A stretch of 64,000 bases of DNA from the NCBI GenBank assembly GCA_028278425.1, contig JANQEJ010000211.1, positions 1 through 64,000 on the forward strand. The letters are read 5' to 3'. This DNA comes from Planctomycetota bacterium. GTDB lineage: Bacteria; Planctomycetota; UBA1135; GCA-002686595. Below, in pieces: positions 1 to 29,897 of this stretch (position 1 is the stretch's first letter; each line of letters begins with the position of its first letter). Both the position numbers and the translations under genes were made by a program. The notes under the pieces were generated by a model. The model saw nothing but the letters and a program-made list of their open reading frames with translations. It did not search any database and was not told the DNA's origin.

Positions 1-689
1 AGAAGCGCTGGCACGACGAGGACCGCCGCGAGACGCGCCGGCGCCTCGGCTTGTCCACGGAGTGGATCGAGAGCTTCCTGATCGTGAGCTTCGGCGGCGT
101 GCAGCCGCACAAGCGCGTCGACAAGGTCCTGGAGGCCGTCGCGGAAGCGCGCCGCGAGCGCGACGACGTGCGGCTCGTTCTCGCGGGCAAGAAGCACGCG
201 GAGGGTTTCGACCCCGAGGGCTACGCGCGCGAGCTCGGCATCGCCGACGCGACGCACTTCACCGGCTTCGTCGAGGAACGGGAGGGTTGGGACTGGATGC
301 ACGCCGGCGACGTCGGCGTCAACCTCCGCGGACCGACCTCGGGCGGGACGTCCGGCGGCATCTTCCAGTCGCTGGGGCAGGGTCGTCCCGTCCTCGCGAG
401 CAACGCGGGGGAGCAGCGCGAGCTTCCCGATTCGTGCACGGTGAAGGTGCCGGTCGGCGTCGCCGAGGTGGAAACGCTCGCGCAGAGGATCGTGGAGCTG
501 CGCGACGATCCGGCGCGGCTTGCCGAGCTGGAAGCCGGCGCGCGCCGCTTCGTCGAGGAGGAGTGCCACTGGAGCCACACGGCGGCGAAGTACGTCGAGT
601 ATCTCGACTCCTTCCCCGGGCCGCGGGCGACGCGCAAGGGGCTGTTGGCGCTCGGGATCGAGCGCCAGCGCCAGCGCGCCCAGGGCTAG
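1..689 (+). CDS. GT4-type glycosyltransferase, C-terminal part (cut by window edge)
   Basis: The reading frame is open from base 3 to a TAG at 687-689, so the gene begins before the window. The visible part is the C-terminal Rossmann half of a GT-B glycosyltransferase. It opens with a segment like the start of the second domain (LIVSFGGVQPHKRVDK), where GT4 enzymes carry a G-x-x-x-x-x-K strand-loop. A donor-binding region follows (SGGTSGGIFQSLGQGRPVLAS), in the place of the usual E-x7-E loop. The role is transfer of a sugar from a nucleotide donor to a glycan; donor and acceptor cannot be told. The stop overlaps the stop of the convergent neighbour on a shared CTAG. Family call is firm, exact function unknown. 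Confidence 0.8.
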   Translation, partial: KRWHDEDRRETRRRLGLSTEWIESFLIVSFGGVQPHKRVDKVLEAVAEARRERDDVRLVLAGKKHAEGFDPEGYARELGIADATHFTGFVEEREGWDWMHAGDVGVNLRGPTSGGTSGGIFQSLGQGRPVLASNAGEQRELPDSCTVKVPVGVAEVETLAQRIVELRDDPARLAELEAGARRFVEEECHWSHTAAKYVEYLDSFPGPRATRKGLLALGIERQRQRAQG

Positions 690-2041
690 TCGGACGTCTT
701 CTCTTCTTCGCGGAGCTCCGCGAGGAGTCGTTGCAGCTCCGTCTCGAAGGCCTCGCCCCAGTGGAAGCGTTCGGGGTCGAGCCCCTTGTAGATCGAGGGG
801 TCGAGCTGTGTGACCCAACGATCCGGCGTGGGCGACGCCGCGTCCTTCTTCCACTCGCGCTCGGGCGCGAAGAAGAACGCCGTGTCGAACACCGCGGCGG
901 GACCGTAGAGGTAGTCGAGCTTGAGTCCCTTCTCGAGGCCCTTGGGGTCGCCGCCATTCTTGCGGACGGCTTCGGCGAGCGCCGGCATGTCGATGTGCCC
1001 CGCGATCGCCTCGCCCAGACGCCGCTTCGGATCGTGGAACTGTCGGACGCGCGGGTCGTCGAAGATCGCCGCGGCCTTGCGCGCGCCGTCGGGGCCGTCG
1101 GTCGCGACGGTGTCGGTCCAGACGATGATCACGCGGAGCTCGTCCTTCGGGTAGGCGTCGATCAGCGCCTTCTCGACCCCACGGGCCGCGCGCAGGCAGT
1201 TCGCTCACGTCGGCGCGAAGAGGCAGAGCACGCGTGTGTGCCCGCGTTCCGCGTTGAAGTGCTCGCGCAGCGGCTGGAGGGACTCGACGAGCGTCGTCGG
1301 TGCCGTCACCTCTCTCGCCGCCGCTGGCGTGGGCGGCACGTACGGGACCGGCTCGACGAGGCGGTAGCCCTCGGGGATCCCGCTGACGAAGGTCTCCGGC
1401 GGATAGTCGTCGTCGCTTGCGATGAGCTCGAGCTTCTTGATCGTGAACCGGCGGTGCAGCGAGTCGCCCTCTCCGATCGGCCGCCTCGTCTCCCAGAGCC
1501 GCGGCAGGCCGTCGCGCGCCGAGAGGTACCACGTGTGGTCGGTCGGCCCGTCCGGCGTGCTCGCCACGACGACGCGGCACGGCTCGGCTCCCATCGATTC
1601 GTTGCCGCGCAGGGACGGCTTGCCCGCGGACGCGATCTTCGTCGGCTCCGCGGGGAAGAGCGTGAGCAGCTCGTAGGCGAGGCGGCTCGGCTCGCCGCCG
1701 ATCAAGGGCACGTCGCCGCGGGTGTAGGTGCGCGCCTTGTGGTCGACGAAGACGTACCGCTTCCCGTTTCGGACGAGCAGCACCCGGCGGCGGTCCTCGC
1801 CGCGCAGCTCGCGGATCTCCGCCTCGATCCGAAAGCGCTTTCCGAGGTCGTTCTCGTGGTCGCGCCAGAAGACGGTCCCGTCGACCGCCCAGGAGCGCCA
1901 CTCGAGGGCGTTGCTCTCGACGAACGAGGCGTCGTACCGCCCCCGCGCGGCCGCGGCGCGGGCGGCCGCGGACTGCTCGAGCACGGCGCGCGCGTCGTCT
2001 TGCGGCGCGAGGAGCAGAGCGAGGGCCAGAAGCAGAGCCAC
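686..2041 (-). CDS. Probable selenoprotein: exported LolA/DUF2092-like domain fused to thioredoxin-fold domain with U-x-x-C motif
   Basis: Two same-frame open stretches on the minus strand (2041-1208 and 1204-686) are separated by one TGA at 1207-1205. Read through as selenocysteine they give one 451-residue protein. The GTG start lies 4 bases after the mutS stop, suggesting coupling. Residues 1-12 form a short hydrophobic export signal. Residues about 15-230 look like a LolA/DUF2092-type beta-rich domain (conserved aromatic pairs such as RYVFVDHKARTY). The C-terminal part is thioredoxin-like: a hydrophobic strand VLCLFAPT, then U279-A-N-C282, a helix beginning LRAARGVEKAL, then a strand RVIIVWTDT. 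The UGA stands where redox Cys is expected. There is no other stop in the second part, whose protein character continues unbroken. Alternatives are a nonsense mutation or sequencing error. The domain names are by eye; the redox role is inferred. Confidence 0.8.
1174..1207 (-). promoter_or_regulatory. Candidate bacterial SECIS hairpin following the in-frame UGA
   Basis: Counting from the UGA at 1207-1205 on the minus strand, 16 bases are followed by a 6-bp stem (CGGCCC, 1188-1183; GGGUCG, 1179-1174, one G-U pair) closed by a GUG triloop (1182-1180). The apical loop therefore starts 22 bases after the UGA, with G as its first base. Bacterial SECIS elements lie directly downstream of the UGA, inside the coding sequence. 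They commonly carry a G in the first two loop positions at roughly this distance, so the geometry fits. The stem is short and the region is GC-rich, so a chance hairpin is possible. Confidence 0.5.
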
Positions 2042-2045
2042 GTCC

Positions 2046-4709
2046 CTACCCTAGCTGATCTTTGAGCTCCTTGAGCTTCACGAGCGCGTCGATCGGGGTC
2101 ATCCCGTTGACGTCGAGGCTTCTGAGCTCGCGCTCGATCCTGCTCTCCTCCGCGGCGAACAGGGCGAGCTGACCCTGGCGCGTCCCCTCCGCCGGCGCCG
2201 CGCCGGTGAGAATGCGATCGGCCAGGTCCTCCTCGTCCTGCTCGAGGTCGCGCAGGATGCTCTTCGCGCGGTCGATCACCTCCTGCGGCACGCCGGCGAG
2301 CCGCGCGACGTGAATGCCGTAGGAGCGGTCGGTGCCGCCTTCGACGATCTTGTGCAGGAAGACGATCTCGTCGCCCCACTCGCGCACGGCGACGTTCTGG
2401 TTGCAGATGCCGGTGTAGCGCGCGGAGAGATCGGTGAGCTGGTGGTAGTGCGTCGCGAAGAGCGTGCGAGCGCGGACGGTCTCGTGCACGTGCTCGACGA
2501 TCGCCCAGGCGAGCGCCAGGCCGTCGAAGGTGCTCGTGCCGCGCCCCACCTCGTCGAGGATGACGAGGGAGCGCTCGCTCGCGTTGTTCAGGATGTTCGC
2601 GATCTCGACCATCTCGACCATGAACGTGGACTCGCCGCGGCTGATGTCGTCGCCCGAACCGACGCGGGTGAAGATGCGGTCGACCGCGCCGATGCGCGCC
2701 TCGGCGGCGGGGACGAAGGAGCCGATCTGCGCGAGCAGCACGATCAACGCGACCTGGCGGATGTAGGTCGACTTGCCCGCCATGTTGGGTCCGGTCAGGA
2801 TCGTGATCCGGCGCGCGTCGCTGTCGATGCGCGTGTCGTTCGGGACGAAGGCCTCGCAGGCGGGGGAGCGCTCGATCACCGGGTGGCGGCCCTGGCCGAT
2901 CTCGATCGCGTCGCCGCGGTCGATCACCGGTTGAGCGAAGCGGTGCTCGGCGGCGATCTGCGCGAGGCCCGCGAGCGCGTCGACCTGCGCCAGGGCGTGC
3001 GCGGTGTCGAGGATGCGGCCGACCTCCGCTCCGACGGCGTCGCGCAGCTCGGTGAAGACGCGGTATTCCAGGTCGCGTGAGAGCTCTTCCGACTTCAAGA
3101 CCTTGGTCTCGAACTCCTTGAGCTCCGGCGTGATGTAGCGCTCGGCGGTCTTGATCGTCTGCTTGCGGATGTAGTGCTCGGGCACGCGCTCGACCTGACC
3201 GCGCGGCACCTCGATGTAGTAGCCGAACACGCTGTTGAAGCCGATCTTCAAGCCCGGCAGTGAGCTGCGCGCGCTCTCCTCCGCCTGGAAGCGCGCCATC
3301 CAGGACTTCGCGTCGCCCGCGATCTGACGCAGCTCGTCCAGCTCGGCGGAGAAGCCGTCGCGGACCAGACCGCCCTCGCGGATCGTCAGCGGAGGCTCGT
3401 CGACGAGCGTCTCGCGGATGCGCGTGGCGACGTCTTCGAGCGGATCGAGGCCGTCGTGCAAGCGTCCGAGGACACCCGAGTAGGCGCCCTCGAGCTTCGC
3501 GCGGAGCGGAGGGACCAGCTCGAGCGAGTTCTGGAGCGCGACGAGATCGCGCCCGTTCGCGCGGCCGGTGGAGACCTTCGACACCAGGCGCTCGACGTCG
3601 AGCACCCGGTCGAGGAGCTCGCGCACCTCCTCGCGGAGAAACGGCGCCTCGACGAGCTCCGCGACGCCCTGCTGGCGGTCGAGGATCGCCTCGACGTCGC
3701 GCAGCGGGGTGAGGAGCCACTCCCGCAGGAGCCGCGAGCCCATCGGGGTCAGCGTGGCGTCGATCGTGTCGAGCACCGTGCCCTCGCGCCGGTTCTCGCG
3801 CTGCGTCGCCACGAGCTCGAGGCACGAACGCGTGGCGCGGTCGAGCACGAGGTGCTCGTCGGCGTCGACGAGCTGGATGCGGCGGATGTGCTCGCAGGCG
3901 GTGTTCTGCGTCTCCTCGACGTATTCGATCAACGCTCCGGCCGCGGGAACGACCGGCGAGTCGTCCGCCAGCCCGAAGCCCTCGAGGCTCTGCACCTTAA
4001 AGTGGCGCAGGAGCAGGTGGCGGGCGGTGTCGCGCTCGAAGCGCCATTCCTCGCGCCGCGTGAGCTTCGCGCCGAGCTCCTCGCGCAGGCTTGCGGCGAG
4101 GGCGTCGAAGCGGTCGTCCGGCGCATCGGGCGCCAGCACCTCGGCCGGCGCGAGACGCGAGAGCTCGTCGGCCAGCGCGTTCGGCTCGAGCTCGACGGCG
4201 TGCAGACGGCCGGTCGAGAGATCCACCCAGACGAGACCGCAACGCCCGCCGCCGATCCAAGCGCTCGCGAGGAAGTTCGGCTGCCGGGCGTCGAGCGCGT
4301 TCTCCTCCGTCAGCGTTCCCGGCGTGACGACGCGCACGATGCCGCGGTCGACGATGCCCTTGGCGTCGCGCGGATCCTGAAGCTGCTCGCAGATCGCCAC
4401 CGTGTGGCCCTTCTTCACGAGCTTGATCAGGTAGGACTCGGCGGCCTTCACCGGCACGCCCGCCATCGCGATCGCCTCGTCGCCCTTGGACTTGGAGCGC
4501 GACGTCAGCGTCAGGCCGAGCTCGCGTGACGCGACGACCGCGTCGTCGTGAAAGAGCTCGTAGAAGTCGCCCATCCGAAAGAAGAGCAGAGCGTCGGGTG
4601 CCTCCTTCTTCGCGCGCCAGAACTGCTCCATCATCGGCGTCTGCGAGCGCTTCTCGCCGCGTTTGCGGCTCGGCTGCGTGCCCGGGAGCATCCGCTGCGG
4701 ATCGGCCAT
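2046..4709 (-). CDS. mutS: DNA mismatch repair ATPase MutS
   Basis: A full-length MutS of 887 residues. It recognises base mismatches and small loops and recruits MutL. The N-terminal mismatch-recognition domain has the Phe-x-Glu element in GDFYELF. The Walker A loop GPNMAGKST is near residue 640 and the Walker B segment LVILDEVGRGTSTFDG follows. I chose the ATG at 4709 (MADPQRML) because the open frame upstream to 4871 is low-complexity Arg/Ser/Gly sequence unlike any MutS, and it would run into the divergent gene. The C-terminus ends in KLKELKDQLG, a typical MutS tail. The stop at 2048-2046 lies 4 bases before the GTG of the selenoprotein gene, so the two are probably one transcript. I see no odd residue in the catalytic motifs. 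Confidence 0.97.
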   Translation of the reverse strand: MADPQRMLPGTQPSRKRGEKRSQTPMMEQFWRAKKEAPDALLFFRMGDFYELFHDDAVVASRELGLTLTSRSKSKGDEAIAMAGVPVKAAESYLIKLVKKGHTVAICEQLQDPRDAKGIVDRGIVRVVTPGTLTEENALDARQPNFLASAWIGGGRCGLVWVDLSTGRLHAVELEPNALADELSRLAPAEVLAPDAPDDRFDALAASLREELGAKLTRREEWRFERDTARHLLLRHFKVQSLEGFGLADDSPVVPAAGALIEYVEETQNTACEHIRRIQLVDADEHLVLDRATRSCLELVATQRENRREGTVLDTIDATLTPMGSRLLREWLLTPLRDVEAILDRQQGVAELVEAPFLREEVRELLDRVLDVERLVSKVSTGRANGRDLVALQNSLELVPPLRAKLEGAYSGVLGRLHDGLDPLEDVATRIRETLVDEPPLTIREGGLVRDGFSAELDELRQIAGDAKSWMARFQAEESARSSLPGLKIGFNSVFGYYIEVPRGQVERVPEHYIRKQTIKTAERYITPELKEFETKVLKSEELSRDLEYRVFTELRDAVGAEVGRILDTAHALAQVDALAGLAQIAAEHRFAQPVIDRGDAIEIGQGRHPVIERSPACEAFVPNDTRIDSDARRITILTGPNMAGKSTYIRQVALIVLLAQIGSFVPAAEARIGAVDRIFTRVGSGDDISRGESTFMVEMVEIANILNNASERSLVILDEVGRGTSTFDGLALAWAIVEHVHETVRARTLFATHYHQLTDLSARYTGICNQNVAVREWGDEIVFLHKIVEGGTDRSYGIHVARLAGVPQEVIDRAKSILRDLEQDEEDLADRILTGAAPAEGTRQGQLALFAAEESRIERELRSLDVNGMTPIDALVKLKELKDQLG

Positions 4710-4797
4710 GGGGCGGGAGTGTAGCAGGCGTCGGTGGTCCGGGAGTTGCGGATCGGGCGCCGTCCTTCGCGTTCCCGCGCTCCCCCGAATCGAACCC

Positions 4798-6108
4798 GTG
4801 CGCCTCGCCTCGCTCCCTCGCCGTCCCTCGCTCCTGCTACCGACCGCGCTCGCCTTCGTCGGTTGCGCCACCTATCCCGAGCGGACCTCCGAGGCGTTCG
4901 ATGCCTTCCAGAGAGGACACTTCGAGCACGCCGCCCTCGAGTACGCGGACCGCGACGTCACCGATTCCGCCTTCCTCTCGGGGGCGGAAGCCGGGGCGGT
5001 TGCGCTGGCCGCCGGCGACTGGGACGACGCGCTCGATCACCTGCACCGTGCCGCGGACGCGGTCGAAGACCTCGAACGCCGCGCGCTGGTGTCAGCGGCT
5101 TCCCTGGGCGAAGGGATGGCCTCGTGGGCGCTCAACGACACCGCCAAGCCCTATCGCGGGGAGGGTTTCGAGCGCGTGTACGTGCACTGCGGGCTGGCGC
5201 TCGCCTACCTCGCGAGCGGGCGGCTGGATGACGTCTGGGTCGAGGTCGCTCTTGCCAACAAGCTCCTGGAGGCGGAGGAGGAGCTCTACGAGAAGGAGTA
5301 CCGAGCGGGCGGATTCGGACACTTCTTGTCGGCGCTGGCCTACGAGATCCTGGGTCAGCCGGACGAGGCCTACGTCGACTACCGGCGCATGGTGGAGAAG
5401 GACGTCGGCACGCGGCTGGCCGGCCGGGCGCTGGTGAGGATCGCGAACGAGGAGGGCTGGCTCGACGAAGCGAGGGCGTGGGAGCAACGGTTCGGTCCGG
5501 ACACGGTTCGCCCTGCCGGCGCGGCCAACATCGTCGTCATCGCCGGGGTCGGATGTGGGCCGATCAAGGAGGAGGGCCGTTTGATCGTTCCGACTCCGGA
5601 CGGCGTGATCCCCTTTGCCGTACCGACCTACGCCAGGCGGCATCAGTGGGTCGACGGGATGCGGCTAAGGCTCGCGAGCGGCGAAACGGTCCGGACCGAC
5701 GTGCTCGAGGACGTTTCCGACGTGGCCGAGCAGAACCTCGCCGACCGTCTCGCGTGGATGGCGGCCAAGTCGGCGGCGCGCGGACTGCTGAAGCGCGAGC
5801 TTACGCAGAAGTTGGAGGCGGAGCTCGGCCTCGGCGGCCGAGCTCTCGGCGAGGTCTTCGCGATCGCCTCCGAGCGTGCCGACCTTCGCGGATGGCAGAC
5901 GCTGCCGGATACCTGGCAGGCCTGCCGCATGTTCGTCCCGCCCGGAGCGCACCGGCTCACGCTCGAGGCCGTGGGAGGTGCACGCTCGCACCTCGGGACG
6001 TTTGCGCTGGAAGAGGGAGAGACGATGCTCATCCTCGCCCGTACCGTACAAGGACGGCTGTATGCCCACGCGATCGGCGGCCAGCCGCTCGGCGGTGCCG
6101 TCCTCTGA
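4798..6108 (+). CDS. COG3014-like lipoprotein, first gene of an LpoB operon
   Basis: A 436-residue lipoprotein if started at the GTG at 4798. That start gives a basic n-region (RLASLPRR), a hydrophobic stretch and the lipobox AFVGC, so the protein should be lipidated and face the periplasm. Residues about 35-220 look like helical TPR-type repeats (LAYLASGRLDDV, LSALAYEILGQPDEAYVDY). The C-terminal half has a conserved strand and loop (NIVVIAGVGCGPIKEEGRL) and an AVPTY segment like the COG3014 family. YcfL-like and LpoB genes follow at short spacing; this triad is seen together in other Gram-negatives and is linked to activation of class A penicillin-binding proteins. Its precise role is not known to me. 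No strong ribosome site precedes the GTG, so the start is a choice. Confidence 0.75.
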   Translation: MRLASLPRRPSLLLPTALAFVGCATYPERTSEAFDAFQRGHFEHAALEYADRDVTDSAFLSGAEAGAVALAAGDWDDALDHLHRAADAVEDLERRALVSAASLGEGMASWALNDTAKPYRGEGFERVYVHCGLALAYLASGRLDDVWVEVALANKLLEAEEELYEKEYRAGGFGHFLSALAYEILGQPDEAYVDYRRMVEKDVGTRLAGRALVRIANEEGWLDEARAWEQRFGPDTVRPAGAANIVVIAGVGCGPIKEEGRLIVPTPDGVIPFAVPTYARRHQWVDGMRLRLASGETVRTDVLEDVSDVAEQNLADRLAWMAAKSAARGLLKRELTQKLEAELGLGGRALGEVFAIASERADLRGWQTLPDTWQACRMFVPPGAHRLTLEAVGGARSHLGTFALEEGETMLILARTVQGRLYAHAIGGQPLGGAVL

Positions 6109-27689: not shown

Positions 27690-29897
27690 TCAGCTCCAGC
27701 GCAGGCGCAGGCTGTTCGTCACGACGAGCACGCTCGACGCCGACATCGCCGCGGCCGCCCACGCGGGCGGGATGCTCCATCCGGTCCAGGGGGCGAGCGC
27801 GCCGGCCGCGACCGGCAACGCGAGCAGGTTGTAGCCGAAGGCCCACGCGAGGTTCTGGCGGACGGTTCTGAGCGTCTTGCGCGCGAGCTTGACCAGCTCC
27901 ACCAGCACGACCGGGTCGTCGCGAAGGAGCGCGCAGTCGGCGGCCTCGATCGCGACGTCGGCCCCGCCGCCCATCGCGATGCCGACGTCGGCGGCTTCGA
28001 GCGCGAGAGCGTCGTTGATGCCGTCGCCGGCCATTCCGACCGCGCGGCCGGCTCGACGCAGCTCGTCCACGCGCGCGGCTTTGTCTTCGGGGGTGAGCTG
28101 ACCCTCGTGCTCTTCCACGCCGAGCGTCGCGGCCGCGGCCGCGACCGCGGCCGAGTGATCGCCGGAGAGGATCCGCGGCTCGATTCCGAGCGCGCGCAGG
28201 TGCTCGATCGCCGCTGGGCTCGTTTCGCGCAGTCGATCGGTCACACCCAAGCACGCTGCGATTCGCCCGTCGAGCGCGATCAGAACGGGAGTCTCGCCGC
28301 GCGCGGTCACGCCGTCGATCGCGGTTTGGATCGTCGGCCCGACGAGCTCGGCCTCCGCCGCGGCCTTCGGGCTTCCGATCCAGACGTTGCGACCCTCCAC
28401 CGTCGCGCGGACTCCCCGACCGGGCTCGGCGGTGAAGTCGTCCGCGTCCGGAACGGCGAGGCCGCGCTCTTCGGCCGGTGCCCGGATGGCTTGGGCGAGC
28501 GGCTGTTCGCTGCCGCGTTCCGCGGCGGCCGCGAGACGCAACAGCTCGTCCTCCGGCACTTCGGGATCCAGCGGCACGATGCGGGCGACCTTCGGCTCTC
28601 CGCGCGTCAGGGTGCCGGTCTTGTCGAGCGCGAGGACGTCGATCCGCGCGAGGGTCTCGATCGCCGCGGCCTTGCGAATCAGCGCTCCGTCGCGCGCGCC
28701 GCGGCCGGTCGCCACCATCACCGCCGTCGGGGTCGCGAGCCCGAGCGCGCACGGACACGCGATCACGAGCACGGAGACGACGTGTGCCAGCGCGACGCTC
28801 CAGCCGGCTCCACTCGCGAGCCAGCCCGCGGCCGATGCGACCGCGACGGCGAGCACCAGCGGCACGAAGACGGCGCTGATGCGGTCGGCCAGACGCTGCA
28901 CCGGCGCGCGCGAGCCCTGCGCCATGTGTACGGCCTCGGCGATGCGACCGACCGCCGAGTCCGCGCCGATCCGCTCTGCCTGGACGGATAGCGCGCCGAG
29001 ACCGTTCAGCGTCCCGGCGTGAACGCGGTCGCCCGGGCCGACCTCGACCGGGAAGCTCTCGCCGGTGAGCATCGACTCGTCCAGCGTCGAGCGTCCGTCG
29101 AGCACCGTGCCGTCCACGGGCAGGCGCTCGCCCGGCCGGACCAAAACGAGGTTGCCGCGCTTCACCTCGGCGAGCGGGACCTCGAGCTCGCGGCCGGCGC
29201 GGAACACGCGCGCCCCCGGCGGGGCGAGCTCCAGCAACGCCCGAACGGCGCCGCCGGCTCGTGCGCGCGCGCGTCCTTCAAGCCAGCGGCCGATGAGGAC
29301 GAACGCGACGATCATCGCCGCGGCGCGGAACGCGTGGACGCCGTGTCCGAAGACCTCGGGCGCTAGCGGTGCCGCAGCGGCCGACAACCACGCCGACACC
29401 GCGCCGAGCGCGACCAGGGTGTTCATGTCCGGCGCCAGGTGGCGTGCCGCTCTCCATCCGCTTGTGAGAATGCGCCAGCCGGCGACGAAGACCACGGGCG
29501 TCGCGAGGAGTAACGGCCACGGACCGGGCTCTTCAAGGCCGACCGCGACCGCGGCCGGTACGCCCAGGACGACGGCCAGCGCCGCCTCGCGGGCTCCGCG
29601 CCGCCGGTCGCTGACTTCGGCCCGCTCGGCGAAGTCCAGGTCGGCGCGAAGGGAGCGCGCTCCCTCGCCCGCGTCCGCGGGAACGCCGTAGCCGGCGCGC
29701 TCGATCGACGTACGAATCGCCCGGCCGGTCGCAAGCTCCGGGTCGCGCTCGATGGTGGCCGTGCGGGAGCCGAAGTTGACCTCGGCCCGCCGGACTCCAT
29801 CGACCGACCGGATCGCGCGCTCGACCGCGTGAGCGCACGCCTGGCACGACATGCCGGTCACCGGTAGACGCAGGACGTCGGACTCTGTGGTCGGCAC
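27690..29897 (-). CDS. copA: Copper-translocating P1B-type ATPase
   Basis: A 735-residue heavy-metal P-type ATPase of the copper type, in the inner membrane. The N-terminal metal-binding domain has [14 protein letters not shown] (Cys pair near residues 18 and 21). The transmembrane metal site is CPC in [18 protein letters not shown] near residue 380. The phosphorylated Asp is in [11 protein letters not shown], and the hinge [10 protein letters not shown] follows, so the catalytic core is complete. Late membrane segments end in [18 protein letters not shown]. It should export Cu(I). No copper-sensing regulator or CopZ is adjacent. Zinc or other metals cannot be fully excluded, but CPC with an HMA of this type favours copper. 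Confidence 0.93.

Follow-up and report, generated by a model that had tools for sequence, protein, structure and literature searches.

A probable exported selenoprotein with predicted LolA-like and thioredoxin-like domains, and its apparently new family in Planctomycetota

Does an in-frame UGA at the active site of a predicted thioredoxin fold end a protein, or does it encode selenocysteine (Sec)? The question is raised by a gene on the reverse strand of a 64,000-nucleotide stretch of DNA (the window) that forms part of contig 306 of a Planctomycetota draft genome (7.83 Mb, 89% complete). A preliminary description of the window had read this gene as an exported LolA/DUF2092-like domain joined across a UGA to a thioredoxin-like domain with a U-x-x-C motif. 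Its sequence, its frame, the TGA at 1207-1205, Cys282 and the 172 further codons all proved exact on re-checking. The gene and its surroundings are laid out as follows:

2046..4871, minus strand: mutS, ending 4 nt before the start of the selenoprotein gene
686..2041, minus strand: predicted selenoprotein gene running from a GTG to a TAG; with the UGA as Sec it encodes 451 residues
2041-2039, minus strand: GTG start codon
1985..2041, minus strand: hydrophobic N-terminus, candidate export signal (GTG-ALLLALALLLAPQDDARA), from the sequence and from relatives
1207-1205, minus strand: UGA (TGA) codon, residue 279, Sec or Cys in homologues
1198-1196, minus strand: Cys282, the predicted resolving partner in the U-x-x-C motif; alignments A3, A4 and A9, which are limited to Sec and CxxC forms, show no variation here
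688-686, minus strand: TAG stop codon

In the read-through protein the UGA stands in the context VLCLFAPT-U-ANC, which gives the pair Sec279-Ala-Asn-Cys282, and it is the only TGA in the frame from 2041 to 686. Codon-position G+C is 0.72/0.51/0.94 on the 5' side of the UGA and 0.71/0.45/0.91 on the 3' side, values so alike that both halves look coding. The stop-free run of 172 sense codons before the TAG, to which attention had been drawn earlier, has the length claimed, but length alone is weak evidence here, and the question is decided by conservation instead. The genome is rich in G+C and such frames are common past gene ends: among ten ordinary genes of the window, the next in-frame stop beyond their own lies more than 150 codons away in five and more than 100 in six. 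The hydrophobic N-terminus has no basic n-region and, judged by its sequence, is a probable export signal; N-termini of relatives end in lipobox-like LGAC, LAGC or SIGC. The gene is probably co-transcribed with mutS. In relatives mutS does not adjoin it, and synteny with mutS or a glycosyltransferase is not conserved. Elsewhere in the window, 26 kb from the selenoprotein gene, a heavy-metal P-type ATPase with an N-terminal HMA-like motif is encoded at 27690-29897 (minus strand).

Relatives of the protein were recovered by protein search in 20 of 299 related genomes, and further searches gave matches in 10 of the 392 phylum genomes, 20 of the 81 family genomes and 20 of the 153 genomes from a class. 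A contig scan with four two-domain sequences, covering one genome per species (84,980 bacterial and archaeal genomes), returned seven loci, namely the three two-domain genes again, L054 and L055-L057; all are from Planctomycetota, a spread to be read with the kinship-based searches staying inside the phylum and the sole working wider pattern scan being strict. The window protein alone as query gave no match in the same scan, and the plasmids and viral contigs searched held no relatives. Three relatives share the two-domain layout (L018 in G007, L019 in G024 and L020 in G030) and have TGA at the same residue; they are 41-48% identical to the window protein over the 33 residues before the UGA and 41-52% over the 66 after it. 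G050 also has a fragment, which lies at a contig end.

Altogether, 11 further Sec sites of the form PTUxxC occur in Planctomycetota: those of the three two-domain genes, of the one-domain relatives L025, L027, L028, L031 and L033, of L050, and two in L054. Cysteine takes the place of Sec in L022 (PNCGPC), L032 (PSCPRC) and L023 (PSCPRS), and L055-L057 are also Cys forms; Cys versions in the family include the motif PTCxxC. Homologues that keep Cys282 and have Sec or Cys at residue 279 exist, as the preliminary description required, and the gene combines a UGA inside one coding frame with Sec and Cys counterparts, as expected of a selenoprotein. A tree of 28 domains groups the four two-domain proteins, including that of the window, in a single clade (100/99); the distribution of the three states (Sec, Cys or neither) requires at least three changes. 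The third state is that of a sub-branch (L024, L026 and L029) that has lost PTUxxC/PTCxxC and carries HMGCERGA instead, with the rest of the domain kept.

The family also varies in architecture. L054:4986-6260 (+) encodes tandem Sec domains in one frame with two TGAs, both in an SPTUGxC context and both with an identical hairpin sequence after them (GGCGCCCGUG). At L052:4275-7001 (+), a LolA-like plus Sec-thioredoxin protein is continued in the same reading frame by a sulfatase (PF00884, E 1e-42), and the Cys forms at L055:149-1147 and L056:5022-6050 have a C-terminal HMA domain after a Cys-rich segment (CxxC...GQC).

Downstream of the UGA, the RNA folds into a candidate Sec insertion signal:

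1174..1188, minus strand: bSECIS hairpin CGGCC-CGUGG-GGUCG (or CGGCCC-GUG-GGGUCG), from MFE folding and covariation

This hairpin has a G-U-rich apical loop beginning 21-22 nt past the UGA and is part of the MFE structure of the window's RNA. Taken from the UGA onward, the 12 Sec sites align without gaps over 45 nt, and RNAalifold, given no structure, predicted a single hairpin for them (columns 20-24 with 30-34, loop start 21 nt after the UGA) with a pentaloop that is mostly CGUGG or CGUGC and with compensatory changes on both sides in four of its five pairs. Across six named pairs, 80.6% of cells are paired in the 12 sites, against 63.3% in shuffles and at most 55.6% in slid versions, and the covariation score is 0.475, against 0.193 +/- 0.050 in shuffles (0 of 500 as high) and at most 0.189 in slid versions. 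Four or more consecutive pairs form at the fixed place in 10 of the 12 Sec sites, in none of the 8 Cys homologues and in 3.0% of the 7151 codon positions taken as background; at the other two Sec sites (L031 and L033) the hairpin forms with a one-base shift or a bulge, as read by eye. The Arg codon in the loop is CGT in 9 of 11 cases, compared with 11% of Arg codons in the window. Because the stem lies partly within the codons for conserved A-R-x-V residues, part of the pairing is due to protein conservation.

The hairpins of the window and its relatives agree with the model of the bacterial SECIS, in which a loop of 3-9 nt with G in its first two positions lies 16-37 nt after the UGA (PMC13188914). 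Taken alone, the window's hairpin stretch does not exceed its shuffles in stability (z = 0.66), and in a bSECISearch-like scan 72% of the window's background positions satisfy the rule of -7.5 kcal/mol, so that in this G+C-rich DNA the published energy threshold is uninformative. The bSECISearch check proposed earlier thus divides in two: the energy scan does not discriminate, and the case for the SECIS rests on the comparative test, which supports the hairpin.

The preliminary description had also remarked that none of selA, selB, selC and selD lies in the window, which is true yet irrelevant, as all four lie elsewhere in the genome. SelA (496 bits), SelB (357 bits), SelD (314 bits) and tRNA-Sec(UCA) (74.8 bits, anticodon TCA) were all identified there, and the genome therefore holds the set required for a bacterial selenoprotein. 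SelD has one in-frame TGA, at its catalytic site in CAGUAAK, where UxxK is the known Sec position of Sec-SelD (PMC13188914); this SelD (L038, G000:C155:566-1507) is thus itself a predicted selenoprotein. The machinery does not separate Sec holders from Cys holders, since selA is present in all 30 genomes tested, holders of either form alike.

Two domains can be assigned to the protein from its predicted structure:

1424..1945, minus strand: LolA/RseB-fold domain, residues 33-206, by AlphaFold model and Foldseek
707..1294, minus strand: thioredoxin-fold domain, residues about 250-445, by model (pLDDT 93.1, pTM 0.90) and Foldseek

An AlphaFold model from nine aligned sequences has a mean pLDDT of 81.6 and places U279 between strand 269-275 and helix 280-294, which, together with the Sec and Cys homologues, bears out the claim that the UGA sits where a redox Cys belongs. 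The thioredoxin-like fold proposed for the C-terminal half is likewise supported by the model and by Foldseek, with the C/U-x-x-C pair at the N-terminus of helix 1. Its nearest structural neighbors are DipZ, ResA, TlpA, Sco and GPx, all weak matches (best E 9e-4, query TM <=0.47). A cis-proline is typical of thioredoxin active sites; in the family a proline occurs near the place expected opposite the redox pair, not in one fixed alignment column. For the N-terminal domain, Foldseek against the PDB returned RseB (3m4w, E 2e-9), LolA (2w7q, E 8e-9) and also LprG. The window protein matches no Pfam or NCBIfam model, including LolA, DUF2092 and similar profiles, so that of the LolA/DUF2092-like domain first described, the fold stands as predicted and sequence models give no counterpart; the domain can be called LolA-like by predicted fold only. 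Thioredoxin, Redoxin and AhpC-TSA profiles also miss the window protein and touch single relatives only (E 0.07-0.3). Relatives searched against family models gave nothing above chance-level matches, and PDB sequence searches yielded nothing, or marginal thioredoxins only.

That the window gene encodes a genuine selenoprotein with a LolA-like plus thioredoxin-like layout is, on this evidence, close to certain. The layout resembles several known systems without coinciding with any of them. The C-terminal domain shares with those of TlpA, ResA and DipZ a thioredoxin fold, a predicted exported location and a redox pair where helix 1 begins, but has Sec in place of Cys, a weak Foldseek match, no Redoxin, AhpC-TSA or Thioredoxin Pfam match and motifs of its own (VWxxxLxxD, DDPRVxxFHD and W..P.P..W.xQL). 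Residues 33-206 share the fold of the LolA/RseB/LprG superfamily of lipoprotein or lipid carriers and sensors, but are fused to a thioredoxin domain, match no profile and were seen with no LolB or RseA partner. The same order of export signal, LolA-like domain and redox domain is found in L030, whose N-domain is ~27% identical to that of the window protein in the multiple alignment; its redox domain, however, is an ordinary TlpA type in Cys form (WCVSC), outside the new family. Known UxxC selenoproteins (for example Sec-Trx, SaoT NF040730, GOS_C NF045500 and the HUIPC-type NF047660) share the U-x-x-C pair and mostly the thioredoxin fold, and NCBIfam models including SaoT and other UxxC selenoprotein families match neither the window protein nor 11 relatives.

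The preliminary description did not recognize this domain order among described bacterial selenoprotein families, and indeed it fits none of the 119 prokaryotic families catalogued in 2026 (PMC13188914). A LolA plus Sec-thioredoxin layout is absent both from that catalogue and from the deep-Sep paper (PMC12013277), and a full-text literature search for selenoprotein and LolA retrieved nothing relevant. PMC4807772, which deals with Planctomycetes selenoproteins, names fdhA and fmdB among them. Short members of the family may already be filed under a broad label, for instance 'thiol-disulfide isomerase-like' (cd02966). Both the domain layout and the family of Sec-containing thioredoxin-fold proteins that these genes make up, with its Sec and Cys branches, are apparently new.

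The best overall explanation, to which we give a probability of roughly 0.85, is an exported Sec protein that combines LolA/RseB-fold and TlpA/ResA-type domains in a redox role. From Sec insertion and export to electron donor, ligand and substrate, we infer the following course for the window protein. The ribosome would read the UGA as Sec by means of tRNA-Sec, SelB and the hairpin ~21 nt downstream, and the product would be exported with its LolA/RseB-fold domain first and its TlpA/ResA-type thioredoxin-fold domain second. Outside the cytoplasm, the Sec selenolate would attack an oxidized or electrophilic substrate (a disulfide, sulfenate, peroxide or soft metal), Cys282 would resolve the selenenyl-sulfide, and a DsbD-type membrane reductase, which is encoded in the genome, would recharge the Sec279/Cys282 pair. 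Sec at the attacking position, the invariant Cys282 and the export signals or lipoboxes of relatives point to an extracytoplasmic selenol-disulfide oxidoreductase; that this is its role, exercised with a LolA-like module for hydrophobic ligands, is somewhat favored. LolA/RseB-fold domains in known relatives form a pocket for lipid or acyl groups. The modeled fold suggests a hydrophobic or lipidated partner here too, and the LolA-like domain would hold such a hydrophobic or lipid-anchored partner. More tentatively, it could present a lipid, a lipoprotein or a hydrophobic toxicant (lipid peroxide or organometal) to the attached Sec-x-x-Cys site outside the cytoplasm.

The same selenoprotein could instead handle mercury, organomercury or other soft metals, its Sec-x-x-Cys motif binding or reducing metal-thiol adducts outside the cytoplasm. 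This role is unlikely, though some neighborhoods recommend it: in G173 both Sec copies (L082:2854-6200 (+) and L081) lie directly downstream of a MerB-type alkylmercury lyase gene, the copy on C47 also having a zf_CopZ-MerT-HMA protein upstream, and the HMA domains at the C-termini of L055 and L056 are of the same tenor. Yet merB or merT does not accompany the gene in most members; the merB link is confined to that one genome, neither the window's genome nor those of the three two-domain relatives contain MerB, and the other members have no metal-related neighbors among the genes checked. In the C47 copy the frame is ambiguous after PTUGWC. Separately from the family, a MerB-family match with an in-frame TGA (G169:C158:23643-24011) is possibly a Sec-containing MerB-like protein.

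Far less probable is that the UGA is an ordinary stop, so that after a 278-residue LolA-like protein there would come a thioredoxin fragment, either decayed or with a start of its own. A GTG inside the frame at residue 304, preceded by AAGGACG, could serve as such a start, and the frequency of long open frames past gene ends fits this view, but the first protein would then break off within the thioredoxin fold, immediately ahead of the active-site residue, and the second would lack the active site with its helix as well as the first strand. Moreover, the TGA is kept in many independent genomes, is exchanged for Cys codons and has a SECIS hairpin after it. Reading of the UGA as another amino acid such as Trp, or its origin in a sequencing error, is more improbable still: TGA is a normal stop in this genome, closing 3 of 10 window genes checked, which rules out a reassigned code; homologues have Cys and never Trp at the site; the Sec system is complete; and recurrence of the TGA in independently assembled genomes makes an error very unlikely.

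The predicted exported Sec protein described here thus represents a selenoprotein family, apparently not yet described, that has both Sec and Cys branches as well as a common RNA signal; few selenoproteins have been described from its phylum. Current annotation does not see the redox half of the protein: a gene caller would terminate the gene at the UGA and leave a truncated LolA-like product on record. The parent Sec/Cys family also occurs fused to a sulfatase, duplicated with two Sec residues and, in Cys form, joined to HMA. Its merB-linked and HMA-fused members offer a second lead, towards metals, next to the first: a LolA fold attached to a Sec redox site may lead to selenium chemistry on lipid-bound substrates.
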